From positions 7,897 through 71,896 of the forward strand of contig PMOQ01000106.1 of the NCBI GenBank assembly GCA_003161255.1: 64,000 nucleotides of DNA, in the 5' to 3' direction. Position numbers and translations under genes: made by a program. The stretch is from Acidimicrobiaceae bacterium (lineage in GTDB: Bacteria; Actinomycetota; Acidimicrobiia; Acidimicrobiales; RAAP-2). The notes under the pieces were generated by a model, which was not told the origin of the DNA, ran no database searches, and saw only the letters and a list, made by a program, of their open reading frames with translations. Below are positions 20,449-57,909 of the stretch, piece by piece. The stretch's first letter is position 1. The number at the start of each line of letters is the position of its first letter.

Positions 20449-20515
20449 GACCGGGCGGGCGCCTCGGTCATGGGGTCGGGCCAGGGCCGACGCGGCACGG
20501 CGGTTCGCCCAAATC

Positions 20516-20561
20516 TTGACTTGCTGAGTCGACAATTGGTCGGACCACCTATAAGGTGGTC
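20516..20561. promoter_or_regulatory. palindromic operator/promoter region upstream of peroxiredoxin
   Basis: TGGTC-G-GACCA (20537-20547) overlapping GACCACCT-ATA-AGGTGGTC (20543-20561). Confidence 0.55.
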
Positions 20562-20634: not shown

Positions 20635-21270
20635 ATGGCAATCCGATTGGGCGACACCGCCCCCGATTTCACCGCAGACACCACCGAGGGAACGATCAAC
20701 TTCCACGAGTGGCTGGGCGACAGCTGGGGAGTGCTGTTCTCCCACCCGAAGGACTTCACCCCGGTCTGCACCACCGAGCTCGGGGCCTTCTCCAAGGCCA
20801 AGGCCGAGTTCGACAAGCGCAACGCCAAGCTGATCGGGCTCTCGGTCGACGGCGTCGAGTCCCACAAGGGCTGGGCCGGCGACATCGAGGAGACCCAGGG
20901 TTCGGCGCTCAACTTCCCGTTGATCGGCGACGAGGACCGCCGGGTGGCCGACCTCTACGACATGATCCACCCGAACGCCAGCGACACGATGACGGTCCGT
21001 TCGGTGTTCATCATCGGCCCGGACAAGAAGGTCAAGCTCACCTTGACCTACCCGGCCTCCACCGGCCGCAACGTCGACGAGATCATCCGGGTCCTCGACT
21101 CCCTGCAGCTGACCGCCGGCTACCAGGTCGCGACGCCGGTCAACTGGAAGGACGGCCAGGACGTGATCATCGTCCCCGCGGTGTCCGACGAGGACGCCAA
21201 GACCAAGTTCCCGAAGGGCTTCAAGGCGCTCAAGCCGTACCTTCGGGTCACCCCCCAGCCCAACCGCTGA
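20635..21270 (+). CDS. peroxiredoxin, 1-Cys (Prx6) type
   Basis: LFSHPKDFTPVCTTELGAF peroxidatic Cys motif; Prx6-type C-terminal extension. Confidence 0.93.
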   Translation: MAIRLGDTAPDFTADTTEGTINFHEWLGDSWGVLFSHPKDFTPVCTTELGAFSKAKAEFDKRNAKLIGLSVDGVESHKGWAGDIEETQGSALNFPLIGDEDRRVADLYDMIHPNASDTMTVRSVFIIGPDKKVKLTLTYPASTGRNVDEIIRVLDSLQLTAGYQVATPVNWKDGQDVIIVPAVSDEDAKTKFPKGFKALKPYLRVTPQPNR

Positions 21271-53045: not shown

Positions 53046-53187
53046 GCGTGTCCCTCCAGTGTGCCGAAACGTCGGCACCTCGTTCGTGTTCGTTCCTCGC
53101 CTCAACGTGGCACCGAACCGGGCCGGGGGCCAGTCCACCGGGGAGAGCGGTCAGCCCTCGAAGTGCTGCACCTTCGAAGGGCTATAC

Positions 53188-53215
53188 TTGACTAAAACGA
53201 TCGGTTTTATAGTAT
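53188..53215 (+). promoter_or_regulatory. sigma-A-like promoter with embedded GATCGG element upstream of cysteine dioxygenase
   Basis: TTGACT (53188-53193), 16-nt spacer AAAACGATCGGTTTTA, TAGTAT (53210-53215). Confidence 0.7.
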
Positions 53216-53232
53216 TACGCTAAGGACGACGG

Positions 53233-53817
53233 ATGAGCCTCACCGGAGAACGCCAGACGAGCCAACACCCGGCGGGGTCCGGATTGCACGGCCCGGCGCC
53301 AGTGCATCCATATGCCCGACCGGCGTCGCCCAAGGCGGCTCCCGCCACGATCCGACTGGACGAGGACTCGCTGTTGAGCCTGGGCCGGCTTTTCGGGTCG
53401 TCGTGTGTGACCCCGTGGTCGGAACGGGGTCACGGAGCGCTCGACGCGCGGGACTATGAGCTGCTGGAACTCTCCGACCACTTCGAGGTGTGGGTCATCC
53501 ACTGGCCGTCCGATGGCTTGCTGCAGCTCCACGACCACGGGGGTTCGTCGGGTGCCTTGTACGTGGTGAGCGGCTCGCTCGACGAAGGCACGGTTTCGGC
53601 CGCCAACACCCACGAGCGGCGGTCGATCGGCGCCGGTCAGGGCACGAGCTTTGGGCCCCGGCACGTGCACGACGTGGTGAACCCGGGCCCGGATGTCGCG
53701 ACGAGTGTGCACGTCTACTCTCCGCCCATGGAGAAGATGACGTTCTTCACACTCCGAGCGGGGGGCCTCGTCCCTGATCACACCGAGTACCGCGCCGATC
53801 CGACATGGGCTCCGTGA
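53233..53817 (+). CDS. cysteine dioxygenase family cupin
   Basis: QLHDHGGSSGALYVVSGSLDEG, GTSFGPRHVHDVVNPGPDVATSVHVYSPPMEKMTFF. Confidence 0.9.
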   Translation: MSLTGERQTSQHPAGSGLHGPAPVHPYARPASPKAAPATIRLDEDSLLSLGRLFGSSCVTPWSERGHGALDARDYELLELSDHFEVWVIHWPSDGLLQLHDHGGSSGALYVVSGSLDEGTVSAANTHERRSIGAGQGTSFGPRHVHDVVNPGPDVATSVHVYSPPMEKMTFFTLRAGGLVPDHTEYRADPTWAP

Positions 53818-54218
53818 GCGGGGATGCGAGCGGCGCAGTCGACCCGGTCCTGGCGGAGGTCCGGACGCGGATCCGGCGGGTCGGACCCGAAGAGGCTTCG
53901 CGGATCCAGAGCGACGGCGGCCTGCTGATCGACATTCGGCCGGTCGAGAAGCGGAAGCACGAAGGCGTGATCCCCGGCGCGCTCGTCATCGAGCGCAACG
54001 TCCTCGAGTGGCGGCTCGACCCGTTCGGGCCGCACCGGCACCCCGACGCGGGCCCGCCGGGGCGCGAGCTCGTCGTGTTCTGCCAGGAGGGCTACGCCTC
54101 GAGCTTCGCCGTCGAGGGTTTGGTTCGGATCGGAGTGGCGCTGGTCAGCGATCTCGCCGGGGGATTCGCGGCCTGGAAGGCCGCCGGTCTCCCGGTTAGA
54201 CCAGACCCTCGGCCTTGA
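53805..54218 (+). CDS. rhodanese-like domain protein
   Basis: GLLIDIRPVEKRKHEGVIPGALVIERNVLEWRLD, VVFCQEGYASSFAVEGL catalytic Cys loop. Confidence 0.92.
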   Translation: MGSVSGDASGAVDPVLAEVRTRIRRVGPEEASRIQSDGGLLIDIRPVEKRKHEGVIPGALVIERNVLEWRLDPFGPHRHPDAGPPGRELVVFCQEGYASSFAVEGLVRIGVALVSDLAGGFAAWKAAGLPVRPDPRP

Positions 54219-55098
54219 CCCACTCCTGAGCCACCGTGGCCGGCGACGCCCCGCCGTTCACCTCGATATTGAGCTTCGAGAGCTGGTCGGTCGTCAGCTT
54301 CGCCGAGAGCTTGTTGATGAGCGCCGCCACCTTGGGTGTGTCGACCGACTTGCGGATCACCGGGATCACGTGGTCGGCCGGCTGGAGATGCTTGTCGTCG
54401 GTCAAGGCGACGAACCCGTTCTGGACGACGTTGCCGTCACTAGAGAACAATTCGACTACCTGGACCTCACCGCTCTTCAGGGCGGCGACGCTGATCGGGC
54501 CGGCCTCGTCGAGCGCCTTGAAGCTCGCGAAGTGGAGCCCGTAGACGGATTCGAGCCCCTCGAGGCAGGTCGGCCGGGTCGGGCACTCCTGGGGGCCGCC
54601 CAAAATGAGCTGGCTGGCGACGCTCTTCAGGCTCGACACCGTGGAGAGGTGGTACTTCTGGGCCGTGGCCTTGGTCACCACGAAGACGTTGGTGTCGATC
54701 GCCGGGGCCGGGTTGAGCACCGTCGCGCCCGAGGGTGAGAGCAGCTTCTTCAGGTCGGCGACGTCGCTGCCGATCTGGTTGGCGGCCTTGGTGTCGTTCG
54801 CGTTGAGGAAGAGCAGCAGGGTCCCGGCGTAGTCGGGCTCGATGTCGAGCTGGCCGTGGGCGAGGGCCGGCTCGACCACTGACCGGGTCCCGAGGTTCGC
54901 CTTCACCTGCACCGAGTAGCCCGCGTGGGAGAGCACGTCGGCGTAGGCGTTGGCCACGATCGTGTCCTCTGGGAAGTTGACCGACCCGATCACGATCGTC
55001 TTGGAGCCGGCCGCCCCGGCGACCGATGCGGCCGGTAGGGCAATCATCGCTGCCGTGGCGAATGCGATCGCTCCGAGCACGATTCGCTTGAGACCCAT
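54196..55098 (-). CDS. ABC transporter substrate-binding protein, glycine betaine/osmoprotectant (OpuBC/ProX) type
   Basis: IVIGSVNFPEDTIVANAYADVLSHAGYSVQVKANLGTRSVVEPALAHGQLDIEPDYAGTLLLFL; signal peptide. Confidence 0.88.
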   Translation of the reverse strand: MGLKRIVLGAIAFATAAMIALPAASVAGAAGSKTIVIGSVNFPEDTIVANAYADVLSHAGYSVQVKANLGTRSVVEPALAHGQLDIEPDYAGTLLLFLNANDTKAANQIGSDVADLKKLLSPSGATVLNPAPAIDTNVFVVTKATAQKYHLSTVSSLKSVASQLILGGPQECPTRPTCLEGLESVYGLHFASFKALDEAGPISVAALKSGEVQVVELFSSDGNVVQNGFVALTDDKHLQPADHVIPVIRKSVDTPKVAALINKLSAKLTTDQLSKLNIEVNGGASPATVAQEWVKAEGLV

Positions 55099-55146
55099 GG
55101 TGGTCCTTCCTGATGGCTGGCCGGGTCCGTTGTCGGGCCCGGGCCG

Positions 55147-55175
55147 ATTGTACAAATCCCGATCTAATTACTCAA
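55147..55175 (-). promoter_or_regulatory. sigma-A-like promoter with embedded GATCGG element upstream of the ABC SBP gene
   Basis: On - strand TTGAGT, 17-nt spacer AATTAGATCGGGATTTG, TACAAT. Confidence 0.7.
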
Positions 55176-55281
55176 CTATAGCCCTCGAGGGCACAGGCCG
55201 ACCAAGGATCATAACCGCCTCGCCATGATCGTCACCGTTCCGTCATCGTCTCTACCCACCTGAAGCCGGTCCAAACCGCCG

Positions 55282-56001
55282 TCATACGGCGGCCCGCACA
55301 CGGGCACTCGTGCCAGCGCCGCCACCGGCCCGCAGCGGAGCCGGGGTCAGGGCCCGCTGCACCCGCCCGAGCACGACGGCGACCAGCCCCGCCAACAGAG
55401 CCACCAGGATCGACCCACTGAACGCCTCGACGTTGTCCTGCGAGGCCAATCCCGACAGCACATAGGTCCCGAGGTCCGAGTAGCTCACGTACGCAGCGAG
55501 CGTGGACGTCGCCACCACCTCGATCGCCGATGTCCGGATCCCGGCGCCGATGAAGGGGAGCGCGAGGGGCAGCTCGGCCCGCTTGAACACCTGCCACCCG
55601 GTCATGCCCATGGCCGATGCCGCCTCGCGCACGTCGGCGTCGACTTCGCGCATCCCGACGTAGGTGTTGGTGAGGATCGGCGGGATGGCCAGCACGACCA
55701 GCGCCAGGTATGCGGCGAGGAAGCCGCCGTACCGGATCGAGATGCTCGGCACGATCGCGAGCAGGGTGAGGAGCGCCAGCGTCGGGATCGCCCGGGCCGC
55801 GTTGGCGGCGTTGACCGCCGCGATGGAGCCTCGGCCGGTGTGGCCGGCCAGCGCGCCGAGCCCGCCACCGATGATGGTCGCGCTCGCGACGACCGCGATC
55901 GACAGCTTGGCGGTCTGCCAGAGCAGCTCGGGGATGCCGTTTGCGCCCTCCCAGTTGCTGGCGGTTGTGAACCAGTGGAAGACCGCGTTCAAGAAGTGCA
56001 T
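55282..56001 (-). CDS. ABC transporter permease (osmoprotectant type)
   Basis: AARAIPTLALLTLLAIVPSISIRYGGFLAAYLALVVLAIPPILTNTYVGMREVDADVREAASAMGMTGWQVFKRAELPLALPFIGAGIRTSAIEVVATSTLAAYV. Confidence 0.92.
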   Translation of the reverse strand: MHFLNAVFHWFTTASNWEGANGIPELLWQTAKLSIAVVASATIIGGGLGALAGHTGRGSIAAVNAANAARAIPTLALLTLLAIVPSISIRYGGFLAAYLALVVLAIPPILTNTYVGMREVDADVREAASAMGMTGWQVFKRAELPLALPFIGAGIRTSAIEVVATSTLAAYVSYSDLGTYVLSGLASQDNVEAFSGSILVALLAGLVAVVLGRVQRALTPAPLRAGGGAGTSARVRAAV

Positions 56002-56002
56002 G

Positions 56003-56731
56003 TCAGGCCGCCGCCCCCGTTCGCACGCGGCCGCCGCGGGTCGGACCCGGCGACCCGGCCCGGCTCCACGGGACGACGAGCCGCTCGGCTAGGACCAGCA
56101 GGAGGTCGGCGACGGCGGCCAGCACGACGGAGAGCACCAGGCCGACGAGGATCGGCGTGTAAAAGGGGCCGTCGTCGGACCCCTGCAGCCCGGTGACGAA
56201 CAGCTGCCCGAGCCCGCCCAGCCCGATCAGCGCGCTGACCGAGACGAGGCCGATCACGGTGACGGTGGCTACCCGGATCCCCGCGAAAAGGTAGGGGAGC
56301 GCGAGCGGGAGCTCGACCCGCACCAGGGAGCGCCCGGGCGTGTAGCCCATCGCCCGGGCCGCCTCCCGTGCGTCGTCGGGGACCGATTCCAGGCCGGCCA
56401 GCGTGTTGCGCACCAGGATCAGCAGTGTGTAGCTGACCAGCGCGATCTCGGCCGTGGTGATCGTGAAGTACCCCGTGACGGGGCCGAGGATCACGAACAG
56501 GGCCAGCGACGGGATGACGTAGAGCACGCTCGTGGCCGTGGTCACAGGGCTGCGCCACCTCCGGTAGCGCCACGCGACGACGGCCAAGGGGACCGAGATG
56601 ACGAGACCGATGCCGACGGCGATGAGGGTGAGCTCGATGTGCTGGTCGAGGTCGGCCACGATCTGGCCCCAGTTCTGTTGCACCCAGCTCCAGCTGAAGA
56701 AGGGCCTGCCCGTGGCCAGCATCCTGTGCAC
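56003..56731 (-). CDS. ABC transporter permease (osmoprotectant type)
   Basis: YVIPSLALFVILGPVTGYFT, DDAREAARAMGYTPGRSLVRVELPLALPYLFAGIRVATVTVIGLVSVSALIG. Confidence 0.92.
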   Translation of the reverse strand: MHRMLATGRPFFSWSWVQQNWGQIVADLDQHIELTLIAVGIGLVISVPLAVVAWRYRRWRSPVTTATSVLYVIPSLALFVILGPVTGYFTITTAEIALVSYTLLILVRNTLAGLESVPDDAREAARAMGYTPGRSLVRVELPLALPYLFAGIRVATVTVIGLVSVSALIGLGGLGQLFVTGLQGSDDGPFYTPILVGLVLSVVLAAVADLLLVLAERLVVPWSRAGSPGPTRGGRVRTGAAA

Positions 56732-56796: not shown

Positions 56797-57909
56797 ATGA
56801 TCACGCTGGACGCGGTGACCAAGCGCTACGGAGACGGTGAGGTCGCGGTCGAGTCGCTGAGCCTCGAGATCTGCGACGGCGAGCTCTGTGTGCTGGTCGG
56901 GCCGTCGGGATGCGGCAAGACCACCACGCTCCGGATGATCAACCGGTTGATCGAGCCCTCGGATGGGCGGATCCTGATCGATGGCCGCAACGTGCTCGAG
57001 ATGGACCCGGTCGAGCTGCGGCGGGGCATCGGATACGTCATCCAACAGGGTGGGCTCTTCCCGCACCGGAGGGTGGGGGACAACGTCGCCGTCGTGCCGA
57101 GGCTGCTCGGCTGGGAGGCCACCAGGGTCCAGGCCCGGATCACCGAACTGCTCGAGCTGGTTGGCCTCGACCCGACCCGCTATGCCCGTCGGTACCCCCA
57201 CGAGCTCTCGGGTGGCGAACGCCAGCGAGTCGGCGTCGCGCGCGCCCTCGGCGGCGACCCGCCGGTGATGCTGATGGACGAGCCGTTCGGAGCGGTTGAC
57301 CCGGTCACCCGCGAGCGGCTCCAGCACCAGCTGTTGGAGCTTCAGTCCGAGCTTCACAAGACGATCGTGTTCGTGACCCACGACATCGACGAGGCGGCGC
57401 GGCTCGGCGACAAGATCGCGGTGCTGTCCAAGGGCGGGGTCCTCGAGCAATACGACACTCCCGCCGGGATCCTCGGTCGTCCCGCGTCGGCGTTCGTCGC
57501 CGAGTTCATCGGCAGCGACCGCGCCGTCCGTGTGCTTTCGGTCACCCCGGTAGAACGCCAGGACCTCTCGCTACCACCTTCGGTGGACACCGAGATGACG
57601 ATGCTCGAGGCCCGCCGCGCCGTGGCGGGGGCCGACACCAGATGGGCCGTGGTTCTGGACGCGGCCGGGGCCCTGCACGGTTGGGTCGACCTCGACCCGG
57701 CGAGCTCGGGGACCGTGGCGGACAACCTTCGCCCGTTCGACGTTGCCATCCCCCTCGGCACGTCGCTCAGAACGGCGTTTGCGAAGATGCTCGAACGCGA
57801 TCTGCGATGGGTGCCGGTGGTCGAGGACGGGCGCTATCTGGGCGTGGTGACCCCGAACGCGCTTCATGGCGCCATGCGTCGATCGGTCGGAGGCCAGCCC
57901 GAGCGCTAG
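56797..57909 (+). CDS. ABC transporter ATP-binding protein (betaine/osmoprotectant type) with CBS-like tail
   Basis: LVGPSGCGKTTTLRMINRLIEPSDGRILIDG, YVIQQGGLFPHRRVGDNVA, LSGGERQRVGVARAL, VTHDIDEAARLGDKIAVL. Confidence 0.94.
   Translation: MITLDAVTKRYGDGEVAVESLSLEICDGELCVLVGPSGCGKTTTLRMINRLIEPSDGRILIDGRNVLEMDPVELRRGIGYVIQQGGLFPHRRVGDNVAVVPRLLGWEATRVQARITELLELVGLDPTRYARRYPHELSGGERQRVGVARALGGDPPVMLMDEPFGAVDPVTRERLQHQLLELQSELHKTIVFVTHDIDEAARLGDKIAVLSKGGVLEQYDTPAGILGRPASAFVAEFIGSDRAVRVLSVTPVERQDLSLPPSVDTEMTMLEARRAVAGADTRWAVVLDAAGALHGWVDLDPASSGTVADNLRPFDVAIPLGTSLRTAFAKMLERDLRWVPVVEDGRYLGVVTPNALHGAMRRSVGGQPER

Follow-up and report, generated by a model that had tools for sequence, protein, structure and literature searches.

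The locus analyzed here raises the question of why a predicted cysteine dioxygenase (CDO) operon and the opposing genes of a betaine-type ABC transporter should be preceded by the same promoter sequence. Both lie in a 64,000-nucleotide stretch of DNA (the window) from an Acidimicrobiaceae bacterium, whose 3.0 Mb draft genome (G000) was searched as a whole. The initial annotation of the window had proposed co-regulation of a sulfur-metabolism operon and a transporter that homology alone would assign to osmoprotectant uptake. The shared site, its conservation and its genome-wide restriction to sulfur loci support such co-regulation, with the regulation itself being inferred. Our main reading, to which we assign a probability of about 0.78, is that the shared sequence would be the operator of a dimeric Rrf2-family repressor governing cysteine and sulfur supply in Acidimicrobiales.

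The paired sites and their dyad form

Both promoter sequences quoted in the initial annotation are present as written, on the + strand from 53180 and on the - strand from 55183. Their identical register is borne out by the pattern CTATASTTGASTAANNNGATCGG, which has exactly two matches in the window, both with 0 mismatches; dinucleotide-preserving shuffles gave a mean of 0.01 matches and two matches in 0/100 cases. Promoter-like hexamers are found at both genes where -35 and -10 boxes had been set. For cdo these are TTGACT (53188-53193) and TAGTAT (53210-53215) with a 16 bp spacer, and for the gene of the transporter's substrate-binding protein (SBP) they are TTGAGT (55175-55170) and TACAAT (55152-55147) with a 17 bp spacer. 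The SBP gene and the rhodanese gene that follows cdo are convergent; the permease genes lie upstream of the SBP gene, and the ATPase gene is divergent from the permeases (Table 1). The second site had been assigned to the betaine-type ABC operon as a whole; it does precede the SBP gene, but no site stands before the permeases or the ATPase.

Table 1. Predicted operators and associated genes in the window
Feature	Coordinates	Strand	Basis and remarks
Third, weaker site TTGACTTGCTGAGTCGA	20510..20538	+	CDO-promoter matrix score 22.1; precedes peroxiredoxin gene
AhpC/TSA-type peroxiredoxin gene	20635..21270	+	Read from translation; similar site-fronted gene in L173
Predicted operator of cdo-rhodanese operon	53182..53210	+	CTATASTTGASTAANNNGATCGG match; held-out matrix score 32.2; kept before CDO orthologues
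17-bp dyad TTGACTAAAACGATCGG of cdo operator	53188-53204	+	Overlaps -35 TTGACT, reaches -10 TAGTAT
CDO-family protein (thiol dioxygenase), 194 aa	53233..53817	+	Pfam CDO_I E 2e-10; PDB CDO matches; alignment
Rhodanese-domain protein, 137 aa	53805..54218	+	Pfam Rhodanese E 8e-12; start overlaps cdo end
SBP, OpuAC family	54196..55098 (ATG at 55098)	-	Pfam OpuAC E 3e-47; PDB matches; orthologue alignment
Predicted operator of SBP gene	55153..55181	-	CTATASTTGASTAANNNGATCGG match; held-out matrix score 27.8; SBP-orthologue sites
Dyad TTGAGTAATTAGATCGG of SBP operator	55175-55159	-	Located between permease gene and SBP gene
ABC permease, same system	55282..56001	-	Pfam BPD_transp_1; no site upstream (window scan)
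Second ABC permease, same system	56003..56731	-	Pfam BPD_transp_1; no site upstream (window scan)
ProV-type ABC ATPase with CBS domain	56797..57909	+	Pfam; TIGR01186 above cut-off; no site upstream

Alignment of 84 site rows yielded the consensus AAACCTGACTAA-TTAGTCAGGTTT, and the conserved unit is a 17-bp dyad, YYGACT-N5-AGTCRR, with AT-rich flanks; YYGACTNNNNNAGTCRR represents the same dyad in relatives. This revises one element of the initial annotation, as the GATCGG described there as a core between the promoter boxes is the degenerate right half-site of the dyad and TTGACT is its left half-site. The G000 sites have the dyad form of the Rrf2 family with a degenerate right half-site (ATCGG). 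Dyad spacing, half-site and AT-rich flanks are presumably those of the IscR type-1 operator. Steric repression is the simplest reading, as the left half-site coincides with the -35 box and the site extends to the -10 box: a dimer bound to the AT-rich dyad, over -35 and up to -10, should exclude RNA polymerase.

Several variations on this arrangement were observed. In three relatives (loci L134, L138 and L144), SBP orthologues are preceded by a pair of overlapping site-like matches spaced 9 bp apart, possibly allowing tandem binding. A variant, CCTGACC-N5-GGTAG, is found before sufC-like genes at a distance of ca. 7 kb or less from rrf2A, one of the regulator genes discussed below (L104, L105, L107, L109, L111 and L115). 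The third window site listed in Table 1 was not reported by either of our two search models, R1 and R2, at the thresholds used. Site-fronted peroxiredoxin genes in both the window and G079 (L173) hint that the regulon may include a branch for oxidative stress.

Distribution in the source genome and its relatives

Allowing up to three mismatches, one further match to CTATASTTGASTAANNNGATCGG was found in G000. This third site, CAATAGTTGACTAAATCTATCGG on contig C37, stands 18 bp upstream of the gene for a sulfate-type substrate-binding protein. It heads the operon for sulfate uptake, sbp-cysT-cysW-cysA, which ends with a gene for an Rrf2-family protein (Rrf2A). A weight matrix derived from eight sites at CDO promoters in other genera, with the G000 sites held out, gave scores of 32.2 (cdo), 31.3 (sbp operon) and 27.8 (SBP). 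The same matrix revealed an independent site, scoring 27.5, between the divergently oriented operons cysH-sir and cysD-cysN. On 60 random 64-kb Markov sequences (3.8 million positions with the dinucleotide statistics of the window) nothing scored 20 or more, the maximum being 15.1. R2, a model based on 84 verified site rows from many genomes, many of them in both orientations, returned exactly four sites in G000 at E<=2, namely those of the sbp operon, cysH/cysD, cdo and the SBP gene, the last being the weakest (E 0.84). As R2 includes the G000 sites it measures restriction and not discovery, which rests on the held-out matrix. R1 overlooked the cysH/cysD site, and R2, built with that site, recovers it; all genome-wide statements refer to pattern and model searches, and weak sites may escape the prefilters of these searches. 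No site stands upstream of a second cysD-cysN pair in G000 (contig C38, L189).

Footprints in relatives were examined in a sample of 100 genomes including G000, the named relatives being Acidimicrobiaceae and other Acidimicrobiales/Acidimicrobiia, nearly all of them metagenome-assembled. CDO homologues occur in 14/100 genomes (counting G000), with a rhodanese partner gene in at least nine; the pairing is conserved in relatives. The site is kept upstream of CDO orthologues in other genera and families, with loci outside the training set scoring 23.2-35.6 (L204, L205, L212, L213 and L214 (Aquihabitans sp. G128)), and the CDO-promoter matrix found none upstream of a few distant CDO homologues. 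For the SBP, the site is retained in five Rrf2A-positive genomes, G000 among them, and in a weak sixth case; orthologues with sites are those of G001, G007, G016 and G030. The SBP orthologue of a genome of the same genus (L231, G001:C82) adjoins metY-metX, which carries a site of its own, and that of G048 (L107) adjoins sufU.

These results bear on whether the two sites simply constitute an ordinary sigma-70-type promoter pair, or one promoter region duplicated nearby, without any regulator. TTGACT and TACAAT/TAGTAT are indeed good promoter hexamers, and the two sites are 2 kb apart. However, there is one other near match in 3.0 Mb, conservation extends beyond the hexamers to the dyad and its AT flanks, the cysH/cysD site lacks a TTGACT box, and orthologues on separate contigs bear the site independently. 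With four G000 sites at E<=2, all at sulfur loci or at the two genes in question, the sequence is no widespread promoter of housekeeping genes. The counts across the genome and the footprints in orthologues lead us to reject a housekeeping promoter or local promoter duplication, and we regard this explanation as extremely improbable.

The genes downstream of the sites are predominantly concerned with sulfur. R1, a sequence-only model applied to all 100 genomes, detected sites in 68, and the downstream genes were identified by reading translations. Among them are cysK-cysE, sulfite reductase, cysD-cysN, cysH, siroheme synthase, ssuD, carbonic anhydrase, DsrE/TusA proteins, sulfide:quinone reductase (SQR), a TSUP exporter and peroxiredoxin. 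R2 adds metY-metX in G001 and G016; in G016 it also adds tauD together with a sulfonate-type binding protein. In Aquihabitans it places sites at a sulfonate-type binding protein, an LLM-type monooxygenase, metK and cdo. The targets are thus cysteine and sulfur supply genes, as in the CymR regulon. Two sites before genes with no clear sulfur role (L229 and L233) count against the main reading, as do the absence of detected sites in 29/97 Rrf2-bearing genomes and the weakness of the SBP site. In the open-access literature, our coverage of which is incomplete, we found no description of such an operator or of an Rrf2 sulfur regulon in Acidimicrobiia.

Candidate regulators

The initial annotation had suggested a trans-acting Rrf2-like factor, and this is strongly indicated by the IscR type-1 form of the site and by the Rrf2 gene that ends the co-marked sulfate operon. 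Further evidence comes from the three genomes in which no Rrf2 gene was detected (G085, G086 and G096), where neither R1 nor R2 found a site. The association between site absence and Rrf2 absence (p 0.03) is weak taken alone, because one of these genomes is only 63% complete and the 29 Rrf2-bearing genomes yielded no site either. We are confident that a protein of the Rrf2 family would act as the regulator, for which either of the two paralogues encoded in G000, Rrf2A or Rrf2B (contig C105), is a candidate.

In many relatives, the Rrf2A gene lies within or next to genes for sulfate, sulfonate, cystathionine/cysteine synthase or suf functions. Rrf2B occurs almost universally, shows 73-96% identity within the sample and contains an invariant YLEQ helix as in CymR/IscR. 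We give even odds to Rrf2B being the regulator, or to both proteins acting together, with Rrf2B as the core regulator of sulfur genes and Rrf2A, encoded in a target operon, as a modulator. Sites are as frequent in genomes without Rrf2A (33/45) as in those with it (35/55), which favors Rrf2B for the core regulon and weakens the case for Rrf2A as sole regulator; further, sites precede cysD/cysH in G002, G003 and G005, all without Rrf2A. Against Rrf2B, its neighbors in G000 are non-sulfur genes and its own gene has no site, whereas Rrf2A belongs to the site-bearing sulfate operon and co-occurs with CDO (13/14, p 0.003, ignoring kinship among genomes). SBP sites likewise follow Rrf2A, being absent from four genomes of the same genus without it, with G055 as the exception. 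Site sub-types for each paralogue, TTGACTAAANNNATCGG for Rrf2A and TGACCNNNNNGGTCA for Rrf2B, were inseparable by eye because CCGAT half-sites are also found in Rrf2A-less genomes. A third, different Rrf2-like gene lies directly before the site-bearing LLM-type monooxygenase gene of Aquihabitans sp. G128 (L227).

The form of the site also raises the question of whether the signal is iron-sulfur cluster status, as for IscR, sulfur genes then being controlled because they supply sulfur for clusters. Related sites before sufC genes near rrf2A in several relatives and the two invariant cysteines of Rrf2B (a C-x5-C pair) would fit this idea. Most of the targets, in contrast, are genes for sulfate assimilation, cysteine, methionine and sulfonates, and the three cluster-binding cysteines of IscR are found in neither paralogue: none is present in 31 aligned rows of Rrf2A, and the third conserved cysteine is absent from Rrf2B (14 rows). 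Both proteins also fall far below the IscR equivalog cut-off, and we consider iron-sulfur signaling unlikely.

The closer parallel is CymR of Bacillus subtilis and Staphylococcus aureus, an Rrf2-family protein that, like Rrf2A, has no cluster cysteines and exerts global control over cysteine and sulfur supply; Rrf2A matches CymR in the PDB with E ~1e-13. Regulation by CymR together with CysK is established in Firmicutes (PMC2940859, PMC9338935), where the signal involves the CysK complex and O-acetylserine (PMC2940859). The present system differs in its phylum, in having two Rrf2 paralogues and in counting cdo and an OpuAC-type SBP among its targets. As Rrf2A (75.9 bits) and Rrf2B (86 bits) miss the CymR equivalog cut-off of 195, the regulator is classed as CymR-like and not as CymR. 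Our comparisons support the view that the Acidimicrobiales system is a cysteine/sulfur regulon under putative CymR-like control. In another actinobacterium, Rhodococcus qingshengii IGTS8, a CymR/Rrf2 protein has been proposed as a sulfur regulator from proteomics and annotation; in contrast to the present case, the sections of that paper considered here give no operator or regulon (PMC8557817).

Probable roles of the dioxygenase and the binding protein

The CDO-family protein has the three metal-binding histidines expected in its cupin fold, with H100, H102 and H146 invariant (HDH plus a third histidine). The expected inducer of a true cysteine dioxygenase is excess cysteine, contrary to sulfate assimilation, which is a point against the main reading. 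Such an enzyme would also destroy the product made by the other targets, so that a thiol dioxygenase for organosulfur salvage is the likelier assignment, in line with tauD and ssuD of the same regulon.

The SBP belongs to the same OpuAC fold family as EgtU and ProX (E ~1e-26 to 1e-20), but sequence alignment did not recover the full set of binding residues of either. Across ten orthologues, the four-tyrosine cage and Lys13 of ProX are not preserved: two of the cage tyrosines, Tyr111 (here Asn) and Tyr214 (here Ala), and Lys13 (here Thr/Val) are replaced, while Tyr63 is kept and Tyr190 corresponds to Phe. Matches to EgtUC structures had raised the possibility of an EgtU-type ergothioneine transporter. 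This was dismissed on the published specificity residues Gly244 and Phe293 (PMC9732360), since the window SBP lacks Gly244 and the Tyr-to-Phe switch, with Phe42 and Tyr90 at these positions in 10/10 orthologues. EgtU positions were placed via ProX/OpuBC alignments and the residues published in that study; as these are sequence alignments at ca. 25-30% identity and no structure was used, individual placements may err. The SBP ligand is thus probably neither betaine nor ergothioneine. The main sign against this, and a further point against the main reading, is the CBS-bearing ATPase, a CBS domain being a trait of osmosensing OpuA-type importers. Since the two promoters are copies of one order-wide sulfur site, the 'osmoprotectant' transporter probably serves sulfur acquisition.

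Under sulfur sufficiency, the proposed repressor would keep sbp-cysTWA, cysDN, cysH-sir, the thiol dioxygenase-rhodanese pair and the OpuAC-type SBP low, and a shortage of cysteine or sulfur would turn on all of these targets jointly. The 'CDO' would then more likely help to free sulfite from organic thiols than clear surplus cysteine, and the binding protein would probably take up an organosulfur compound. A more specific version, which we put forward only tentatively and consider rather doubtful, is organosulfur scavenging in which the SBP captures a non-betaine, non-ergothioneine sulfur compound, the CDO-rhodanese pair acts on a thiol made from that compound to free sulfite, and sulfate assimilation is coordinated with this route by two Rrf2 paralogues whose operators overlap.

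In conclusion, a poorly studied and largely uncultured order of soil Actinobacteria, including Aquihabitans sp. G128 with its complete genome, gains a sulfur regulon with a defined predicted operator, candidate regulators and about a dozen target functions. Our analysis also makes a case that 'osmoprotectant' binding protein (OpuAC family) and 'cysteine dioxygenase' are the wrong names for some proteins that form part of sulfur acquisition.
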